Shown piece by piece: positions 39,957 through 48,666 of a DNA stretch of 64,000 bases. The notes beneath the pieces were generated by a model. It had not been told where the DNA came from and did no database searches. It worked only from the letters and a program-made list of their open reading frames with translations. The stretch's first letter is position 1. Every line of letters begins with the position of its first letter. Both the position numbers and the translations under genes were made by a program. This DNA comes from Cylindrodendrum hubeiense (taxonomy: Eukaryota > Ascomycota > Sordariomycetes > Hypocreales > Nectriaceae): positions 54,483-118,482 of the forward strand of contig JAANBB010000088.1 in assembly GCA_014621425.1 (NCBI GenBank), written 5' to 3'.

Positions 39957-40576
39957 ATGGCGGCCCCTCCCGAAAAGACCACCCATGATCTGAACGGAAA
40001 ATGGGTCATGGTAAGTATGTGCTGCTCGTGCTGCACCATTGTTATTGCTGATTTTGTCAACCGCGATAGAACAAAGAGCTTTCCGACAGCCCTGAGCCAG
40101 TTCTCTCACTACAAGGCATCAATTACTTCACGCGCAAGGGTATCTGCTTGTCGACGATAAACATTGAGATAAAGCAATATATCGCGCTACCCCTGCCCCC
40201 AAGCACATCGACGGACGAGGTCACACATCTCAACACAACCCAATGGAGCACCCTAAACAGCACCCAGGAGGACCGGTGCTTCGATAACACGATGCGCGAT
40301 CATTCAGATTGGATCTTCGGCGCAGTCAAGGGCCTTACGCGGTGGGTGAGTCTGGAAGAAATTGAAGATGAATTCTTGAAGAAGGACTGGCTCGTCGAAG
40401 GCGAGGGCAAGACGCTCATTTTCAGCTTCGCTGAAAGCCAGGGCAATGGCTGGGATGCCACACAGATCTGGGGGTTTCAGACTGTAAATGGCGAGAGGCG
40501 ATATTGTAGGCGTGCATTGGTCACAAAGGGCAAGAAGAGGGCCACTTTTTTGTCTGTTTACGACTACGCCTCGTAG
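39957..40576 (+). CDS. Small conserved fungal protein, lipocalin-like in layout
   Basis: Two exons, 39957-40010 and 40070-40576, with a 59-nt intron (GTAAGT, GATAG); 186 aa. The splice gives DLNGKWVMNKELSDSPEPVL, followed by LQGINYFTRKGICLSTINIEIKQY, HSDWIFGAVKGLTRWV, GWDATQIWGFQTVNGERRYCRR and KRATFLSVYDYAS. The N-terminal GKWVM start, short alternating strands and absence of a signal peptide suggest a small beta-barrel of fatty-acid-binding or lipocalin type. I recognise this as a recurrent uncharacterised ascomycete family, without a known ligand. Both exons show a consistent frame. Confidence 0.75.
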
Positions 40577-40798: not shown

Positions 40799-43700
40799 TT
40801 AATCTGATGTGCTTCTCTTGCGTCTAGGTTCTATCCTCTGATATTCCACGTCGGAATTATCAGGCGTATCTTCTCCGTCACTAGCCGACCAATCCTCCTC
40901 GTCGCTATACATGACACCACCCTCCAACGCCTTCTGATACTTCAACTCTTCAATCTCATCACTCTTCTTCAAGGCATCTATAAAATCCCTCGAAGGACCG
41001 ACAGTGTGCCTCAGAAATGGGATAATCTCAATCGACGCCCCGGCATTCAGGGCCGCTACCAGCACCGCCACGCCCTTTCGTCCCTTCCAGTTCCCCGACA
41101 TGCCCTGCACAGAAATCCCCTTTCGTATTATAGTAGAAAATATAGTGCGATATGACGGCCTTTCCGCGATGCTAACAAATCGCTTGTTTGGTCGTGCGAG
41201 GAGGTAGCCACGGTGAATCTCTCGCACATCATATTGCCGTATTAGCGATCTGATTTCGCTATCACCTGTTTCTTCAGCTAAATCGCACAACTCTCCCCAG
41301 TCATCCATCAGCCATGCTGCATGCTCCAAAAGCATTTCCGCAATAGCGTAATCTGAGTGTCCAACAGCTTGATACAGCGCATTTGCATGCACAGGATGCG
41401 TAGCGAATACGTCAGCGCCCTTGTGCAGCAGGAGCCGCGTGATTGACTTGCGAGATGCAAAGGCAGCTGCTATAAGTGGTGTTCCATACCGACCTGCATT
41501 GGTATTGGCATTGGCGCCGTGATCAATGAGGAGCTTGACCATGTCCTCGTTTCCGATGGCCACAGACGCCTGCAGAGGAGATCCGTACACACGACAGAGC
41601 GAATTGGGGTTGCGATTGGCTTTCAGAAGGCATCTTAACTCCCGGATATCACCGGCCATTATAGCGCGGCAGAGGTAGTCCCCTGAAAGCGCATAGGCTA
41701 TCTTCATCTGCGTAGCAATGGTCTTCTCTTCTTGCCGCAAGGAAGCATTGTCGAGGAGAATACCCTGGAATAGTTGCCCATGTACAAAATCGTTTCCGTT
41801 CCACGCAACGTTTGCGTTGCCATAGCGCCAGCGTGGGTCAGATATTCTTCTGCGCTCACTCACAACAGCAGTTGTGTTTTGAGGGATGGGCTCGTATTTC
41901 CAGACATATGTGTGTGCATGAACTGTGGTGACTTCGCCCGTGTTTAGCTCGACTTCAACTCCTACACTCTGTCGCTGCAGCAGCGAATCTGTCTCAGATC
42001 GATCGTCATATCGCTCGTCTGAAGTGGCAGGCTTCATGTGGACAAGATTGCGCTCTGTTGAGGCGAAGATGAGGTCAAAATACCGGATTGCCTCCCTTGC
42101 CACGCCAGAAATCAAAAATCCTACAACGCCATTTGGGGAGCCGTGTGACGTAGGTGATGTCCCATTTCGGCCAGTTTCACTCTGTGTGACCTTCTGGATA
42201 ACTGCGCAATCAAGTCCCTCGGGTTGCCAACGAGAATACCCGCGTAGAAAGGCCGGGGTCATCAGCTCTGTAGTCCTCTGAAGGGACAAATTGGCCTTGG
42301 ACCAGTCCCTTGATTCAAGAACTAGGCGACGCTGAAGGTCTGGCGAATACGCGCCCTTAGTAGATTGAGAAGCTATTGCGTGGAGAACTGACGGGAACAT
42401 GAGACGACCATAAACGAAGATGTTGGTTGTACCTGGATCGACTCTTGCGTCCTCTACTTCGCGCCGGGAGAGGTGGTTTGTGCCTGCTAGTATGTATGAG
42501 GGGATCAAAGAGGCCTCTGGTAGTGGGAGACACTCGTGGTGATACAATGGTGGAGGTTTAATTGGCTCCGGCGCAATAAACGCTTGATCTCTGTCGAAGT
42601 CTTCGTCGTCATGGATGTAGCCGCGAGATGTCGGCTCTGGCCGCTGATCTTCAGGGAGGCCGACGAAGCGTTTCGATCCTGACTCCTTATTACTTTCAGT
42701 AACTAGTTCAGGGACTATTAGATCAATGTCATCTCCTTCTACAGCGAATGTGACTCGCTTCTTCTCTGGCTTCTTAGGCTCGGCAACGACCTTTGGCGAC
42801 GGATTTTGTGGTAGTTTTGCCGGTTCGTTTTCTTCATTTGTTGTTAGTCTCTCCTGTTTACATCCCTCTTCACAATACTGGACGGCTGGCGGTGATAGCT
42901 TTTGAGTGGGGGCTGATGGCACGCCAATAATCTCAGATACACCGTTGTCGAATTTGAGTTCCTGATTCTCGGGAGCCAGAGTAGTTTTCCCCGTCTCCGA
43001 CTGAGCCCCAACAGATGGATTAATAGATACCATGGTCCCCGAAGCCGGACTTTCTGAATTCTCAATGCCATCTCTAGATGCACAGTGATGACAGATATAC
43101 TCATACTCAGTCTGTGTATCCAGAATTGTGCTTCGGAGTTGGGCGGCAGTGGGTCGATCACTGGGTTTCTCTTGCAGCATCCACTCTGTCCAGTCGAGCA
43201 CAGGAATATCAAATGCTGCGCCAGAGCCGCGGAGCTTTTCTATCCAGAGACGAGTTGCGGGCTCGTTGAGACAAATTGTGCGGTAGTTTTCTGTACCGTG
43301 CTGCGAGAAGAAGCCCAGCATCTCGTTGTGAGTGTGACCGAACAGGATTGTGGCCATTTCAAGGAACACGCAACCTAGTGACCAAATATCACTGGCAGTG
43401 TTTCTATCCTGATGGAAATTAGCCTCTATTTCCAGCGTGATTGTGGAATGACGCCGGGGGACGAAGAAATGGCACTTACAGATCCTTCCATAACTTCAGG
43501 GCCCCAATATCTCGGAGTTCCCTCTTTCGACTCCCCATTTGTAGTCAAATGCCCGTCAAGGCAAATTCTCGACGTTCCAAAATCCGCCAGCAGAATCCGG
43601 CCGTCCTTGACAAGCACGTTGTTCGGCTTAATATCCTTATGTCGGATATTTTTCTTGTGGACATACGCCAGTGCCGTGACAAGACACCCGAAGAAGCCTC

Positions 43701-44568
43701 TGAGACTCTTCTTCCGTAGATCCGAATCCACGTCAGCCGAGTTGAGGTACTGGTGCAGATCTGTATTTGCCACCGGGCGCATGATTAATCCTAAGGCCGT
43801 TGAGTCCGTGTATGAACCTACGAGCTTAACCACATGTCGGTGAGAAATTGCCTTTAAGGCTTGTAACTCTTTCTCGAAGGATGCGAGCCGAAATTTGTCT
43901 TCAAGCACCGACTGGCCCCTGTGGATCTGCTTCCGCGCATACGTGTTCAATGTCCGCATACTGTACACTTCGTCCACTTCAGCGAAGCGGCCTGTGCCGA
44001 GGACTTTTAATGAATGAAAATACGCGTCTGCACCACCACGGAGATGGACGTGTCGCCCGCCTTCTTCGAGTTCAGATATGTCTTCCTCACGCCGGCAACG
44101 AACGATGCTCTGCAGATTCAGGAAACGAGACCGCTGGGTCGTGCCTTTAATGATGTCTGGGAGATTGCCTTCATTGTATGGAAGATAGTGATCTGTTCTT
44201 CCCTCTGCGACGAAAGTTGCCATCTTCTCTGGGGTGCCGAGCATCCAGAGGAGGGAAAAGGTGCGTGGACGAAGACTCCATTCGTACTTGCCATGATCCA
44301 GTAGAAGCTGAGAGATTGCGGGGAAGACGGCGTCGAGAAGGATTCTCTTGTCCAACAAAGGGTCATTGGGCTGCGGAAGGAACTTTGCTAGGCCTCTGCG
44401 GAAGAGCTCATCGGGCAGAACCCTTGTGATTGGTTTCGCTACAAGGTAAGTTGAATCGGAGTCGTTCATCTTCGTTGATTCGGTTGGCTGGTGTGGTGTT
44501 GATGTTTCGACGGGTAATTCGTCGTCGCCACCGAGCGACTCGTAAAATGGCCGTTGGTAGTTGGTCAT
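40799..44568 (-). CDS. Protein kinase / AIG2-like / ankyrin fusion protein
   Basis: Two exons, 43480-44568 and 40799-43408, 71-nt intron (GTAAGT, CATCAG) joining EGS to DRNTASDIWSLGC; 1232 aa. Residues 1-185 are a helical lead. The kinase covers about 186-460: glycine loop GTGRFAEV at 191, lysine K213, FEKEL for helix C, HKD at 310-312 with N317, DFG at 329-331 and GTPRYWGPE at 350. All catalytic residues are present. After a low-complexity linker, about 690-870 matches the AIG2/gamma-glutamylcyclotransferase fold (FVYGRLMFPSVL, FLRGYSRW, VVGFLISGV, AHTYVW), but the catalytic glutamate position (family LDxFEG) reads FDLIFA, so it is probably non-catalytic. Ankyrin repeats span about 936-1091. 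It is divergent from a HeLo-pseudokinase gene, 808 bases between starts. Confidence 0.87.
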
Positions 44569-45376
44569 CTTTTGATGTTGTGAGCTTAGTATTTAGTCAA
44601 CCAATGTATCAGGCCTAATAAAAATCACGGATGATGGTACCGAAAGTTATACGTCTTGACTGCATTGAATACGAAGAAGAGGTAAATGAGAATAAGTAAA
44701 TGAGGAAATATCCTCGATCACCCGACCATCATTATCTCGGATACTGGCGGCAAGTTATATTCACACCAAGACAACTTCGATCAGTACAATTCGGGCGAAC
44801 TTGCGAACCACATCGTAATACGACAAGAATTCGCCACACATGTTTGTACTGTTGCAGGTAACTACTAAAGTTAAGGCAACCGCAAGGCTGACGGTGGTCA
44901 TGCCTGGAATTAGTGCGGACTGGTGGTTGATGACGCAAATCACCGCCTCATTCAGGACAGCCCAATGACAGCACTGCCGTCGGCCCCCAAAATGTGATCG
45001 ACCCCTCCAACCTCGAGGCTTGATTTGGGTGACAACCCCATTAGTAGTGTTATAATTCAAGGCAGGCGAAGTGTGGCTGTACAGGACATGTGGTTATTAC
45101 AGGCTTATCATCGCTAGCAGTGTTCGCCTTGCCTGAAAATTGTCGTCAGTTGGTCGACTTACTAATCTTGGACACCGCCGCCTTGCATCGGCAAGGCAGA
45201 CTAGGTTGGCATTCATTCGCCACGCCCACATTGATGGTCTTGGCCAGTACAACTACATATCGCCGCAAAGCCCCTAATTAACATGCACGGGGACTAAGAT
45301 CAGTTGACTGTCAAGCTGACACAAAAGCGTTCTCTGTATTTTAGTAAGGTTCCTCGTCCACCTCGAAAACGCTACA
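44569..45376. promoter_or_regulatory. Shared divergent promoter of kinase fusion and HeLo-pseudokinase genes
   Basis: Only upstream sequence separates the two start codons. No reading frame in it resembles a family. The arrangement allows co-regulation, which is the main point of interest; no specific site was recognised. Confidence 0.45.
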
Positions 45377-47308
45377 ATGGATGCCGTCGGACTGGGACTG
45401 GGCTCCGTCTCATTGCTGTTCCAAGTGTTTGCAGGATGCATCAAAGGTACGGGTTCAGATTGTCATATTTGATCATAGGACTGACAGGGTAATTGACATG
45501 TAGGATATCAGCTTCTCTCCGAAGCACAAGGCCTCAAAAAAGACTACCAATTCTTTCGCATCCGCTTCAAAACAGAACAATACCGACTCCTTGACTGGGC
45601 CACTATTGGCCGCCTCACTGAGACAGATGAGACCCTTGTCATTAACACGGCGAGCAAGCCGCTCTTGCTAGACGTGCTCGACCAACAGCACAGACTGATG
45701 CTCCGCTTTGGTCGGCTGGATGACCGTCTCCGGCCGCTCACAAATCCGCTTCTTAGCGAACATCATGAATCTGACCATTCCAAGGGTAATCTCTTGGCCG
45801 ATATCGACTCAGTGCAGAATCGATTCCCGGACGCAAACGTTCTGCTCAACAAGTCGCTCGAGTTTATTCACAGTACCAGCAAATTTCCCACGAAATTGAG
45901 ATGGGCCATCTCCGATAAGGCGAAAATTGAAGAAATTCTCGCCAAGTTGACGGCATTGAACGATTACCTCGACCAACTGCTTAACAACCAGCAGCTCCAG
46001 AGTTTGGGGAATCAGCAAACAAGAACAAATTACCAGATCATGCAGCTCAATAACAAAGTCGATCATCTTTGTGAGCTTGTTCAAGCTGGACTTTTTACCC
46101 TTCCTCCTACCACAATTTTTCAGTTCGGCATGGCTGGCTCGCACGCATATCAGGATGAACCCGGACCCAGGCGAGAAGCCGGACTCGCGAGTCTTGCTCA
46201 GTTCAAAGCACTCATGTCCGCCATCGACAACGCGTCCCTAACGGAGGACTTCAAATCAAAACTAGGTCTAGCCAAGGCGACAGGTGAAAGGCAGCCGCTA
46301 CGTGTTTTATCTAGGGAGATCGAGGTGCTTGGAAAAATCCTGCCGTTATCAACAGCCAGAGTGTCAGCATGGTACAAACCCTCTGACGCATCCTGGCGCA
46401 AGGTCTGGATCGAATGGAAGAGCACGCACCCCGACTTTGCCCAAAAAACGGATGAGCTAAACCACCATCGCACGCTAAGCCGGTTTGAAGCCCTTGTCGA
46501 GCTCCTCCGCCAAGATAACGCTACTAAGCAGTTTCAAACCATGCGTTGCCTAGGCTACTACGTCGAGGAGCAGAGCGCCGGGAAACCCCGGTATGGTTTC
46601 GTCTTCGAGAACCCGGAGGGTATTGACCCGGGCCTGAAGCCTACGTCATTAATGGATCTGATGGAGACGCGCATGCCGAGCCTAAGCGCGCGAGTGAAGC
46701 TGATGAGGGCGTTGGCAGAGTGTCTTGAGAAACTTCACGCCGTGAACTGGCTCCACAAGGGTCTTCGAAGTCAAAGCGTTATTTTCTTCCAGGAATATTC
46801 TGGAGAAGTAGATTTAGCAAAGCCATATCTGTCTGGCTTTGATTATTCTCGTCCCGAGAGCGCCGAATATATGTCGGAGAGTCCACCAGCCGTGGCAGCA
46901 GAGGATCTGTATCGACATCCGGCTGTACAGGGTGGGCCGAGGGAAGATTCTTATGGGTTTGGGTTTAAGAAACAACATGATATTTACTCACTTGGCGTGC
47001 TATTGCTTGAGATTGTGTACTGGAAACCAATCTATGCCATTCTTGGGTTTGATAGTGCACAGGTTGTGCGGCCCAGAGAAATTGCGGGCGTGAAGACGAA
47101 GTTGCTCAAGGGAGGGCATGAGGCGTACGTGCGGAGTTATATGGGTGATACAGTTGCGGATATCGTCATGGCTTGTTTGAATGGGCCTGCTGCGTTTGGA
47201 GTCATGGAGAATATGGGAGGAGGGGATCCTGAATCTGCTTCTGCGCTAAGATTGCAGGAGGGACTTTTTGAGGTAATTGTAAAGAAGTTACAGGGAGTGA
47301 GCATTTAA
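45377..47308 (+). CDS. HeLo-domain pseudokinase (MLKL-like architecture)
   Basis: Two exons, 45377-45446 and 45504-47308 (57-nt intron), 624 aa. Residues 1-210 are a HeLo domain: MDAVGLGLGSVSLLFQVFAG, then YQLLSEAQGLKKDYQFFRIR and LLDWATIGRL. HeLo is the membrane-permeabilising helical bundle of HET-S, related in fold to the killer domain of MLKL. A linker with a possible coiled coil (QIMQLNNKVDHLCELV) follows. Residues about 340-620 have a kinase fold (VKLMRALAECLEKLHAVNW, DIYSLGVLLLEIVYW), but HRD is replaced by HKG (441-443) and DFG by SGFDYSR (about 466), so phosphotransfer is not expected. The likely role is a death effector held in check by its pseudokinase; this is inference from architecture. 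Confidence 0.88.
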
Positions 47309-47778: not shown

Positions 47779-48666
47779 ATGTCTCACCCACGCACTATCC
47801 TCATCACAGGGTGCTCGGAAGGCGGGCTAGGGGATGCGCTTGCTCGCGCGCTCCACCAACAAGGCCAGCATGTCATCGCAACAGCAAGGAATCCCAAAAA
47901 GATGGCTCATTTCGAGGAGTTGGGTATTGAAAAACTGGAACTTGATGTTCTCTCTTCAGAGTCCATTTCTGCCTGTGTCGCTGCGGTCGCTGAGAGCACA
48001 GGCAGCCTCGATATGCTCATAAACAACTCTGGTGGGGGCTACGCGATGCCGTTGATTGATTCAGACCCAGATGTGTCGCGCCAATTGTTCGAGGTCAATG
48101 TTTGGGGCATGCTCGCGGTCACTCGAGCGTTTTTACCGCTGCTACTGAAGTCTGGAGAGGGGGGCACTATTGTGAACAATACGTCCATCAACTCAGTTTT
48201 GCCAATCCCAATGTGCGGAATCTACAATGCCAGCAAGGCTGCCGCTGCTATGATCACCGACAACCTGCGATTAGAGCTTGCGCCATTCAATCTGAAAGTT
48301 GTGGATCTGAAGACCGGCGCCGTCAAGAGCAACTTTTATGAGAACCGACAAGGTGGAGCGAAGCCGTCTCTGCCCAAAGACAGCCTTTACAACGTTGCAA
48401 AAGAGGATATCGAAAACATTTTGTTCGGAGCTCACACCGTGAAACTCAAGATCGATGCCGATCAATGGGCACAGCAGGTTGTGAAAGAACTGCTTAAGAC
48501 ATCACCTCCACTACAGATTTGGAAAGGCGGAAATGCACTATCTGCCTTCTTCTCGGCGTTTTTGCCGATTGCATTGATATTGCATGTCTTGTCCAAAGTC
48601 GGGGCCTTGGATATAGTCAAGAAGAATTGGAAGGGGATTGGGGGAAGTCATTCAAGCAAGCCATAG
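47779..48666 (+). CDS. Short-chain dehydrogenase, 1-acyl-DHAP reductase (AYR1)-like
   Basis: NADPH-dependent reductase of the classical SDR type, 295 aa, single exon. The cofactor loop is ITGCSEGGLGDALA. Other motifs are NNSGGGYAMPL (family NNAG), the catalytic serine in NNTSINS, YNASKAA (YxxxK) and a C-terminal hydrophobic helix (FFSAFLPIALILHVLSKVG) that fits attachment to ER or lipid droplets as in yeast Ayr1, which makes 1-acyl-glycerol 3-phosphate. The N-terminus is MSHPRTILITG, typical of the subfamily. AYR1 function is inferred from subfamily pattern; substrate specificity among these reductases is loose. Confidence 0.88.
   Translation: MSHPRTILITGCSEGGLGDALARALHQQGQHVIATARNPKKMAHFEELGIEKLELDVLSSESISACVAAVAESTGSLDMLINNSGGGYAMPLIDSDPDVSRQLFEVNVWGMLAVTRAFLPLLLKSGEGGTIVNNTSINSVLPIPMCGIYNASKAAAAMITDNLRLELAPFNLKVVDLKTGAVKSNFYENRQGGAKPSLPKDSLYNVAKEDIENILFGAHTVKLKIDADQWAQQVVKELLKTSPPLQIWKGGNALSAFFSAFLPIALILHVLSKVGALDIVKKNWKGIGGSHSSKP

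Follow-up and report, generated by a model that had tools for sequence, protein, structure and literature searches.

Two divergently oriented genes of Cylindrodendrum hubeiense (Nectriaceae, Hypocreales), one coding for an active-looking protein kinase and the other for a protein with a HeLo domain and a kinase-like domain, hereafter called the HeLo-pseudokinase, appear on balance to constitute a two-gene regulated-cell-death module, in which the kinase would control, and most likely activate, the executioner via its pseudokinase. They lie in the window, i.e. the whole stretch of 64,000 nucleotides analysed here (contig C786, positions 54483-118482, of an assembly of 47.5 Mb). The head-to-head arrangement given in the preliminary description is real, with start codons at positions 44568 (- strand) and 45377 (+ strand) and a common intergenic region of 808 bp (44569..45376), and both gene models are identical to public predictions along their entire length. 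Linkage to a kinase was found far above chance at loci of this pseudokinase family throughout the genome, a recurrence stronger than that description had stated. Since a kinase adjoins most of these loci, and is sometimes fused to the pseudokinase, a likely upstream partner can be named. HeLo-pseudokinases as a kind were already known, whereas no mention of the linked kinase was found in the literature searched. The recurrent and conserved pairing suggests that fungi have a kinase-controlled membrane-killing switch of their own.

Recurrent kinase linkage in the C. hubeiense genome

Pseudokinase-family loci were collected by searching the assembly with the HeLo-pseudokinase of the window and merging exon matches, which gave 16 loci. 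The HeLo profile PF14479 matched above its cut-off at ten of these (C786, C712, C14, C79, C788, C523, C401, C500, C390 and C131). All locus classes were measured against one kinase list of 115 loci, obtained from a Pkinase search in which the best 124 of 259 candidates were scored. The control listings included the best 150 of 191 HET and the best 90 of 128 NACHT matches. Because the kinase, HET and NACHT sets are the best of larger numbers, the pairing counts are lower bounds.

A Pkinase match was present at a distance of 5 kb or less at a minimum of 11 of the 16 loci (C1, C14, C152, C357, C390, C523, C634, C712, C786, which is the window, C788 and C79), and at least seven of the ten HeLo-positive loci had one within 5 kb, whereas kinase density predicted 0.49 paired loci in 16 by chance. 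Among the kinase loci listed, none was found within this distance of the nine HeLo loci lacking such a pseudokinase, the 19 other DUF7580 loci or the 85 NACHT loci, and only 2 of 150 HET loci had one, one of these two adjoining the C634 pair. The difference between 11/16 and the pooled controls (2/263) was significant (Fisher p 2e-14; 4.6e-12 after removal of the window and C712), also when only the 28 controls of the nearest classes were used (p 5.7e-7). The corresponding values for the HeLo-positive loci (7/10) were 2e-10 and 1e-7, and p was 0.002 against the 0/9 HeLo loci without a pseudokinase.

These controls bear on the explanation that the linkage is a by-product, both families residing in fast-turnover accessory islands of defence genes and their proteins not interacting. 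Both families are indeed multiplied in the genome, and a HET gene is found close to the C634 pair, but the other immune-type families (HET, NACHT, HeLo and DUF7580, as counted above) are nearly without kinase linkage, and the fusion proteins and cross-species adjacency described below would be left unexplained. A by-product is thus considered quite improbable.

Flanks were inspected at four unpaired loci (C131, C401, C46 and C500), at C103, and upstream of C712. A divergently oriented kinase lies at a distance of 0.6-2.4 kb from C401, from C46 and from C500; these pairs were left out of the statistics because the flanks of the control loci were not likewise inspected. At C523b, a kinase domain lies in cis with the pseudokinase. 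With these three pairs and this fusion added, and with C712, which was kept in the uniform tally of 11/16, set aside, dedicated pairs or fusions are present at 14 of the 16 loci. Thirteen are adjacent pairs; ten of these are divergent, and eight lie where PF14479 was matched. Ankyrin repeats were found at eight of the thirteen. At C786 and C523 they are part of the kinase protein itself; at C1, C390, C788, C401, C46 and C500 they are encoded by the frame next downstream on the kinase strand, putatively a part of the kinase. In all 11 rows compared (C712 included) the catalytic Asp is kept by the kinase and replaced in the partner. The C390 kinase has DFS instead of DFG, and the translation of the C788 kinase shows HGDVKPSN. 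The partner kinase frame at C79 (L030:1069-2775) has an ankyrin-free tail which, judged by eye, may resemble a retropepsin-like fold. An IBR/RING-type domain lies downstream of the C634 partner kinase in a frame of its own (L062:2703-3230). FslK kinases were considered and rejected, being reported lost in Ascomycota in the available passages of PMC3937382.

Over ten dedicated pairs, kinase similarity tracks HeLo-pseudokinase similarity (Mantel r 0.72, P 2e-4); some sequences in this set are partial, and the C401, C46 and C500 pairs were left out. Most of the signal comes from two groups, C786/C79/C14/C523 and C152/C634. A mirror correlation between species (r 0.89, 13 pairs) was not counted as evidence, because it is explained by common species history.

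Pairing in related fungi and one-chain forms

The 23 top homologs of the window kinase (P0121-P0143, its own entry included) were compared with the listed HeLo-pseudokinase homologs, contigs being matched by identical recorded length and the protein database being clustered at 90 %. Thirteen of the 23, the own entry included, share a contig of the same length with a HeLo-pseudokinase homolog. Locus tags are consecutive in eight species, namely C. hubeiense, Neonectria punicea, N. ditissima, Fusarium zealandicum, F. sarcochroum, F. lateritium, Apiospora marii and Thyridium curvatum, which cover the three subclasses Hypocreomycetidae, Xylariomycetidae and Sordariomycetidae. One metagenome contig of 9,939 bp must carry both genes. 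Only the contig is shared in Colletotrichum tanaceti, Xylaria telfairii, Apiospora kogelbergensis and Hypoxylon cercidicola, the common contigs of the last two being megabases in size. As to the unmatched kinase homologs, those of Fusarium nematophilum and Gaeumannomyces tritici belong to other assemblies than the HeLo-pseudokinase matches of these species, one homolog lies on a metagenome contig of 3.5 kb, and for six the matches listed include no HeLo-pseudokinase from the species concerned.

The two kinds of domain also occur in one chain, which, like the genome-wide pattern, had not been anticipated in the preliminary description. In a single open frame at each of C357 and C523b, the pseudokinase is preceded by a kinase domain with the catalytic Asp and ADFG. 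The fused frame L019 (C357:169992-173549) contains HFDLAPRN and ADFG and has a weak HeLo match between kinase and pseudokinase; L022 (C523:108761-112453) contains HHDLRPEN and ADFG, with no HeLo match in between. The C357 form is confirmed by the public prediction P0244 (919 aa), and in 30 of the 78 proteins found with P0244 the precomputed domains include both Pkinase and DUF7580. Pkinase was matched in all 23 fused members aligned, DUF7580 in 20 and HeLo in 6 (E ≤ 0.1). The fused kinases were aligned by hhalign with the partner kinases of the two-gene form (probability 100, E 1.3e-41), the alignment starting at residue 92 of P0132, inside the N-terminal module, and extending through the kinase domain, and in a profile comparison the C-terminal part of the fusions matched the pseudokinase (probability 100, E 6.4e-46). 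As both parts are matched, relatives of both kinase domains occur in adjacent genes as well as in a single protein. In P0180 of Periconia digitata (1693 aa), a PigL_N/SesA-type helical domain, an active-looking kinase from the same family and numerous ankyrin repeats are joined in one chain.

In P0244 and P0300 the matched HeLo part starts at profile position 37-38, so that the first HeLo helix seems to be missing. The view that the fusions contain a complete HeLo killer in cis was considered too strong and rejected. The apparent loss of the helix would suit a HeLo protein which serves not as executioner but as a membrane-targeted scaffold or receptor which, in ordinary signalling, would bring the kinase to the membrane. 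The stand-alone HeLo domain is, however, of full length with a hydrophobic first helix, as in the toxic HeLo domains described in the accessible part of PMC10197012, and a scaffold role is held to be improbable.

A number of observations weigh against a two-gene death module. Gene linkage does not tell activation of the partner from its restraint. Six of the 16 loci had no PF14479 match over the cut-off (C357, with a weak match of E 0.005, and C1, C152, C634, C523b and C46); they are therefore called pseudokinase-family loci, and the killer domain there is only putative. C131 had no kinase in the flanks inspected (3.8 kb and 3.7 kb), and no HeLo-pseudokinase was found beside the C103 kinase in the genome searches and inspected flanks. 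The kinase neighbour of C712 is probably coincidental, as its sequence resembles a housekeeping kinase, probably of the AAK1/ARK type by its sequence features (Pfam gives Pkinase only); no other kinase-like frame is present in the 4.7 kb upstream. In Aplosporella prunicola the two genes are on separate contigs, the kinase being only 36 % identical, and most of the HeLo-pseudokinases listed from Dothideomycetes, which are about 40 % identical, lack a close kinase relative among the 120 listed. The rank-based Mantel correlation over the ten pairs is weak (rho 0.25, P 0.05); inclusion of C712 lowers both coefficients, r to 0.57 and rho to 0.10 (P 0.22). The HeLo part of the fusions did not align by hhalign and was weak by Pfam (6/23 at E ≤ 0.1). 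Linkage in relatives, which the preliminary description had proposed as a check on the pair, was thus mostly confirmed, by seven further species, the metagenome contig, 12 further pairs in the same genome and the fusions, and failed in A. prunicola.

The two proteins of the window pair

The HeLo-pseudokinase gene is encoded on the + strand in two exons, 45377..45446 and 45504..47308, separated by an intron of 57 bp (45447-45503); exon 1 corresponds to the hydrophobic N-terminal helix of the HeLo domain. The predicted protein has 624 aa, with an N-terminal HeLo domain and a C-terminal kinase-like domain. The HeLo domain (aa 5-214, 45389..46075, spanning the intron) is matched by PF14479 (E 7.9e-34) with a score of 117.7 bits, the curated cut-off being 23.2, over positions 1-204 of the 205 of the profile, and is helical in the predicted model. 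Its hydrophobic first helix is kept in the six homologs listed.

The pseudokinase domain (aa 285-624, 46286..47305, + strand) has HKG where HRD would be expected (aa 441-443, 46754..46762) and GFD in place of DFG (aa 468-470, 46835..46843). These positions were compared in an alignment of 117 of the 120 listed homologs, three shorter than 541 aa being dropped. The HRD position reads HKG in 114, and HKS, HKA and HKD in one each, and the DFG position GFD in 107, GFE in 9 and GFK in one. The catalytic Asp is thus missing in 116/117 homologs, P0037 (HKD) being the sole exception, and DFG in 117/117. A HeLo domain fused to a kinase fold without catalytic Asp and DFG, as previously described for this gene, is in agreement with the PF14479 match, the HKG and the GFD.

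Just behind GFD, a stretch of the activation loop (46847..46876, + strand) contains two candidate phospho-acceptors, S472 and S481, selected by conservation. Residue 472 is Ser in 113/117 homologs, and residue 481 is S or T in 116/117 (72 T, 44 S), several neighbouring residues being variable. Only columns 481 and 148 are S/T to at least 90 % while having S and T at no less than 20 % each, column 418 being narrowly below the limit. In the predicted model, aa 474-483 form one of four segments with a predicted local confidence (pLDDT) below 50. From the sequences, the conservation at 472 and 481 is the pattern expected of a candidate phospho-acceptor loop. The matches listed in a fold search with the model of this protein cover its kinase half and do not include MLKL, which is not evidence of a difference.

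The kinase gene lies on the - strand, with exon 1 (43480..44568, aa 1-363, from the start codon) and exon 2 (40799..43408, aa 364-1232 and stop) separated by an intron of 71 bp (43409-43479) inside the kinase domain; the spliced model is identical to P0121 (100 %). The predicted protein has 1232 aa. Its N-terminal module and kinase domain are followed by a linker, long and variable, and by a tail with a GGACT/AIG2-like domain and ankyrin repeats. The N-terminal module (about aa 40-182, 44023..44451) is in part common to the fused kinases according to hhalign, and was without a match in a Pfam search of the window kinase. The kinase domain (aa 183-460, 43118..44022; Pfam 3e-43) contains K213, D312, N317 and D329. 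Among 30 kinase homologs the K is present in 28 and the D, N and D in 29, the remainder being gaps. Judged by these residues, it appears to be a separate and catalytically competent kinase.

In the tail, the GGACT/AIG2-like domain (about aa 700-915, 41753..42400, - strand), which is probably degenerate, has a YGRLM motif and was named from relatives, PF06094 being matched in 10/30 kinase homologs at E ≤ 0.1 (best 6.3e-7) and not in the window kinase itself in the Pfam search. This region may descend from an enzyme that has degenerated and now serves as a sensor. The ankyrin repeats (about aa 930-1090, 41228..41710, - strand) are matched by Ank_2 (7.3e-12, aa 942-1031). No NACHT or NB-ARC domain was found in the protein by Pfam (E ≤ 0.1). 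With the repeats and the GGACT-like domain in its tail, the kinase is a plausible intracellular sensor. The earlier account of a kinase with intact catalytic motifs and a sensor-like tail was therefore upheld, by the presence of K213, D312, N317 and D329 and of the ankyrin repeats. A fold search with the kinase model of P0132, used as a stand-in for the window kinase, had kinase domains among the matches listed. The closest paralog of the window kinase is at C103 (C103:11500-21500; 43 % identity over the C-lobe), where a second kinase lies about 2.6 kb further downstream.

The presence of a kinase fold in both proteins, and the frequency of tandem duplication, could be taken to indicate that the neighbouring gene was duplicated to give the pseudokinase, the adjacency being a functionless relic. 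The two domains are, however, not close: BLASTP between the two proteins gave a weak kinase-kinase match (E 0.083) and short matches at chance level. Their first matches among sequences in the PDB also differ, being LIM kinase 1, PERK and B-Raf for the pseudokinase and NEK7, PDK1 and SNF1 for the kinase (NEK1, CDK16 and ankyrin proteins also being among the best 60 of 1169), and the partner kinases of the genome fall into several groups unlike each other. A duplication relic is accordingly regarded as highly improbable.

The pair is bordered on one side by a small gene (39957-40576), the main frame of which has no Pfam match, and on the other by a short-chain dehydrogenase gene (window positions 47780-48666).

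Proposed mechanism and comparison with known systems

In the mechanism proposed, the ankyrin/GGACT-like tail of the kinase would sense a non-self or damage cue, upon which the kinase would bind the pseudokinase and phosphorylate its activation-loop stretch, with S472 and S/T481 as candidates. By analogy with MLKL, phosphorylation would free the HeLo bundle, and its hydrophobic first helix may then insert in the plasma membrane, so that the cell would be killed or sealed off. The kinase would thus fill the position held by the NOD-like receptor (NLR) in fungal modules of the NWD2/HET-S type. All four steps, sensing, binding, phosphorylation and killing, are inferred.

The main alternative is that the kinase restrains its partner, phosphorylation silencing the HeLo protein as an antidote silences a poison, so that loss or inhibition of the kinase, e.g. 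by the action of a pathogen, would trigger death as in a guard system. Linkage, fusion and co-diversification are as compatible with restraint as with activation, and a kinase domain serves as antidote in the spore-killer Spok proteins of fungi. On the other hand, adjacency over three subclasses argues against a drive element, the repeat tails would resemble sensors that turn a kinase on, and MLKL, a characterised protein of the same architecture, is activated by its kinase according to the available text of PMC12881547. Activation is thus favoured, and restraint is rather unlikely.

With the two genes, the question of the upstream partner becomes testable in yeast. If activation by the linked kinase is true, kinase-triggered killing by a helical bundle would not be confined to animals, and fungal genomes would hold many natural kinase-substrate pairs for studies of specificity. 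The wider proposition, that filamentous fungi carry a large undescribed class of kinase-driven modules of the necroptosis type, each linking an ankyrin-sensor kinase to a HeLo-pseudokinase executioner of its own, with about 14 pairs or fusions in one genome and single-chain forms included, is put forward tentatively, its chances being just short of even. On this proposition, the switch made up of kinase, pseudokinase and helical bundle would either predate animals or have been invented twice, and would be a second main route of regulated cell death in fungi alongside NLR-amyloid signalling.

In the open-licence literature in PubMed Central (PMC), as far as its texts were available, neither a linked kinase of HeLo-pseudokinases nor an account of how the fungal proteins are switched on was found, and an earlier description elsewhere is possible. 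The passages of PMC10197012, PMC9815663, PMC12258605, PMC7889193, PMC5485727, PMC7885112, PMC9119436, PMC12394161 and PMC8778642 matching kinase-related terms contain no kinase/HeLo-pseudokinase pair, and no passage of PMC2838846 or PMC3321046 matched these terms.

The preliminary description had regarded HeLo-kinase proteins as known in fungi, which is correct, since HELL proteins carrying a kinase or pseudokinase domain are on record for fungi in the accessible part of PMC12881547. The HeLo-pseudokinase of the window has the same architecture, and differs from those proteins, as described there, in the linked active kinase, the one-chain fusion and the genome-wide pairing; the same passages mention no kinase as a linked sensor. 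Plant MLKL-like proteins similarly have a HeLo-type bundle joined to a kinase-like domain, and a gene-paired kinase, unlike here, is not mentioned for them in the sections available of PMC10951266 and PMC12881547.

As in metazoan RIPK3-MLKL, a separate, active-looking kinase is accompanied by a partner composed of an N-terminal helical killer domain and a pseudokinase. The executioner resembles MLKL in lacking the catalytic Asp and DFG and in keeping hydroxyl residues in the activation-loop stretch. The fungal kinase differs from RIPK3 in its ankyrin/GGACT-like tail and in being closest to NEK7/PDK1 among the PDB matches listed, RIPK being absent from the best 60 of 1169. It also lacks the RHIM core: the tetrad [IV]Q[IVLC]G was absent from both window proteins in a motif scan. 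The fungal genes further differ from RIPK3-MLKL in being physically paired and multiplied, and their function is putative. The proposal of a fungal counterpart of RIPK-MLKL thus holds for the logic, i.e. a paired active kinase and HeLo-pseudokinase, while RIPK membership is not supported by the best matches listed (NEK7/PDK1/SNF1) or by the RHIM scan; as logic the comparison is apt, as a mechanism it is a proposal.

The fungal modules of the NLR/HeLo amyloid type are a second point of comparison. In the available passages of PMC7889193 and PMC10197012, NWD2/HET-S and PNT1/HELLP are adjacent genes for a repeat-tailed sensor and a HeLo-type executioner. The pair differs in that the proposed sensor is a protein kinase where these modules have a NACHT or NB-ARC domain, and in that a pseudokinase forms the C-terminal part of the executioner. 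No common amyloid motif was seen between the window proteins by BLASTP, the only comparison made. Like them, the C. hubeiense pair consists of two adjacent genes, one for a repeat-tailed putative sensor and one for a HeLo-type executioner.

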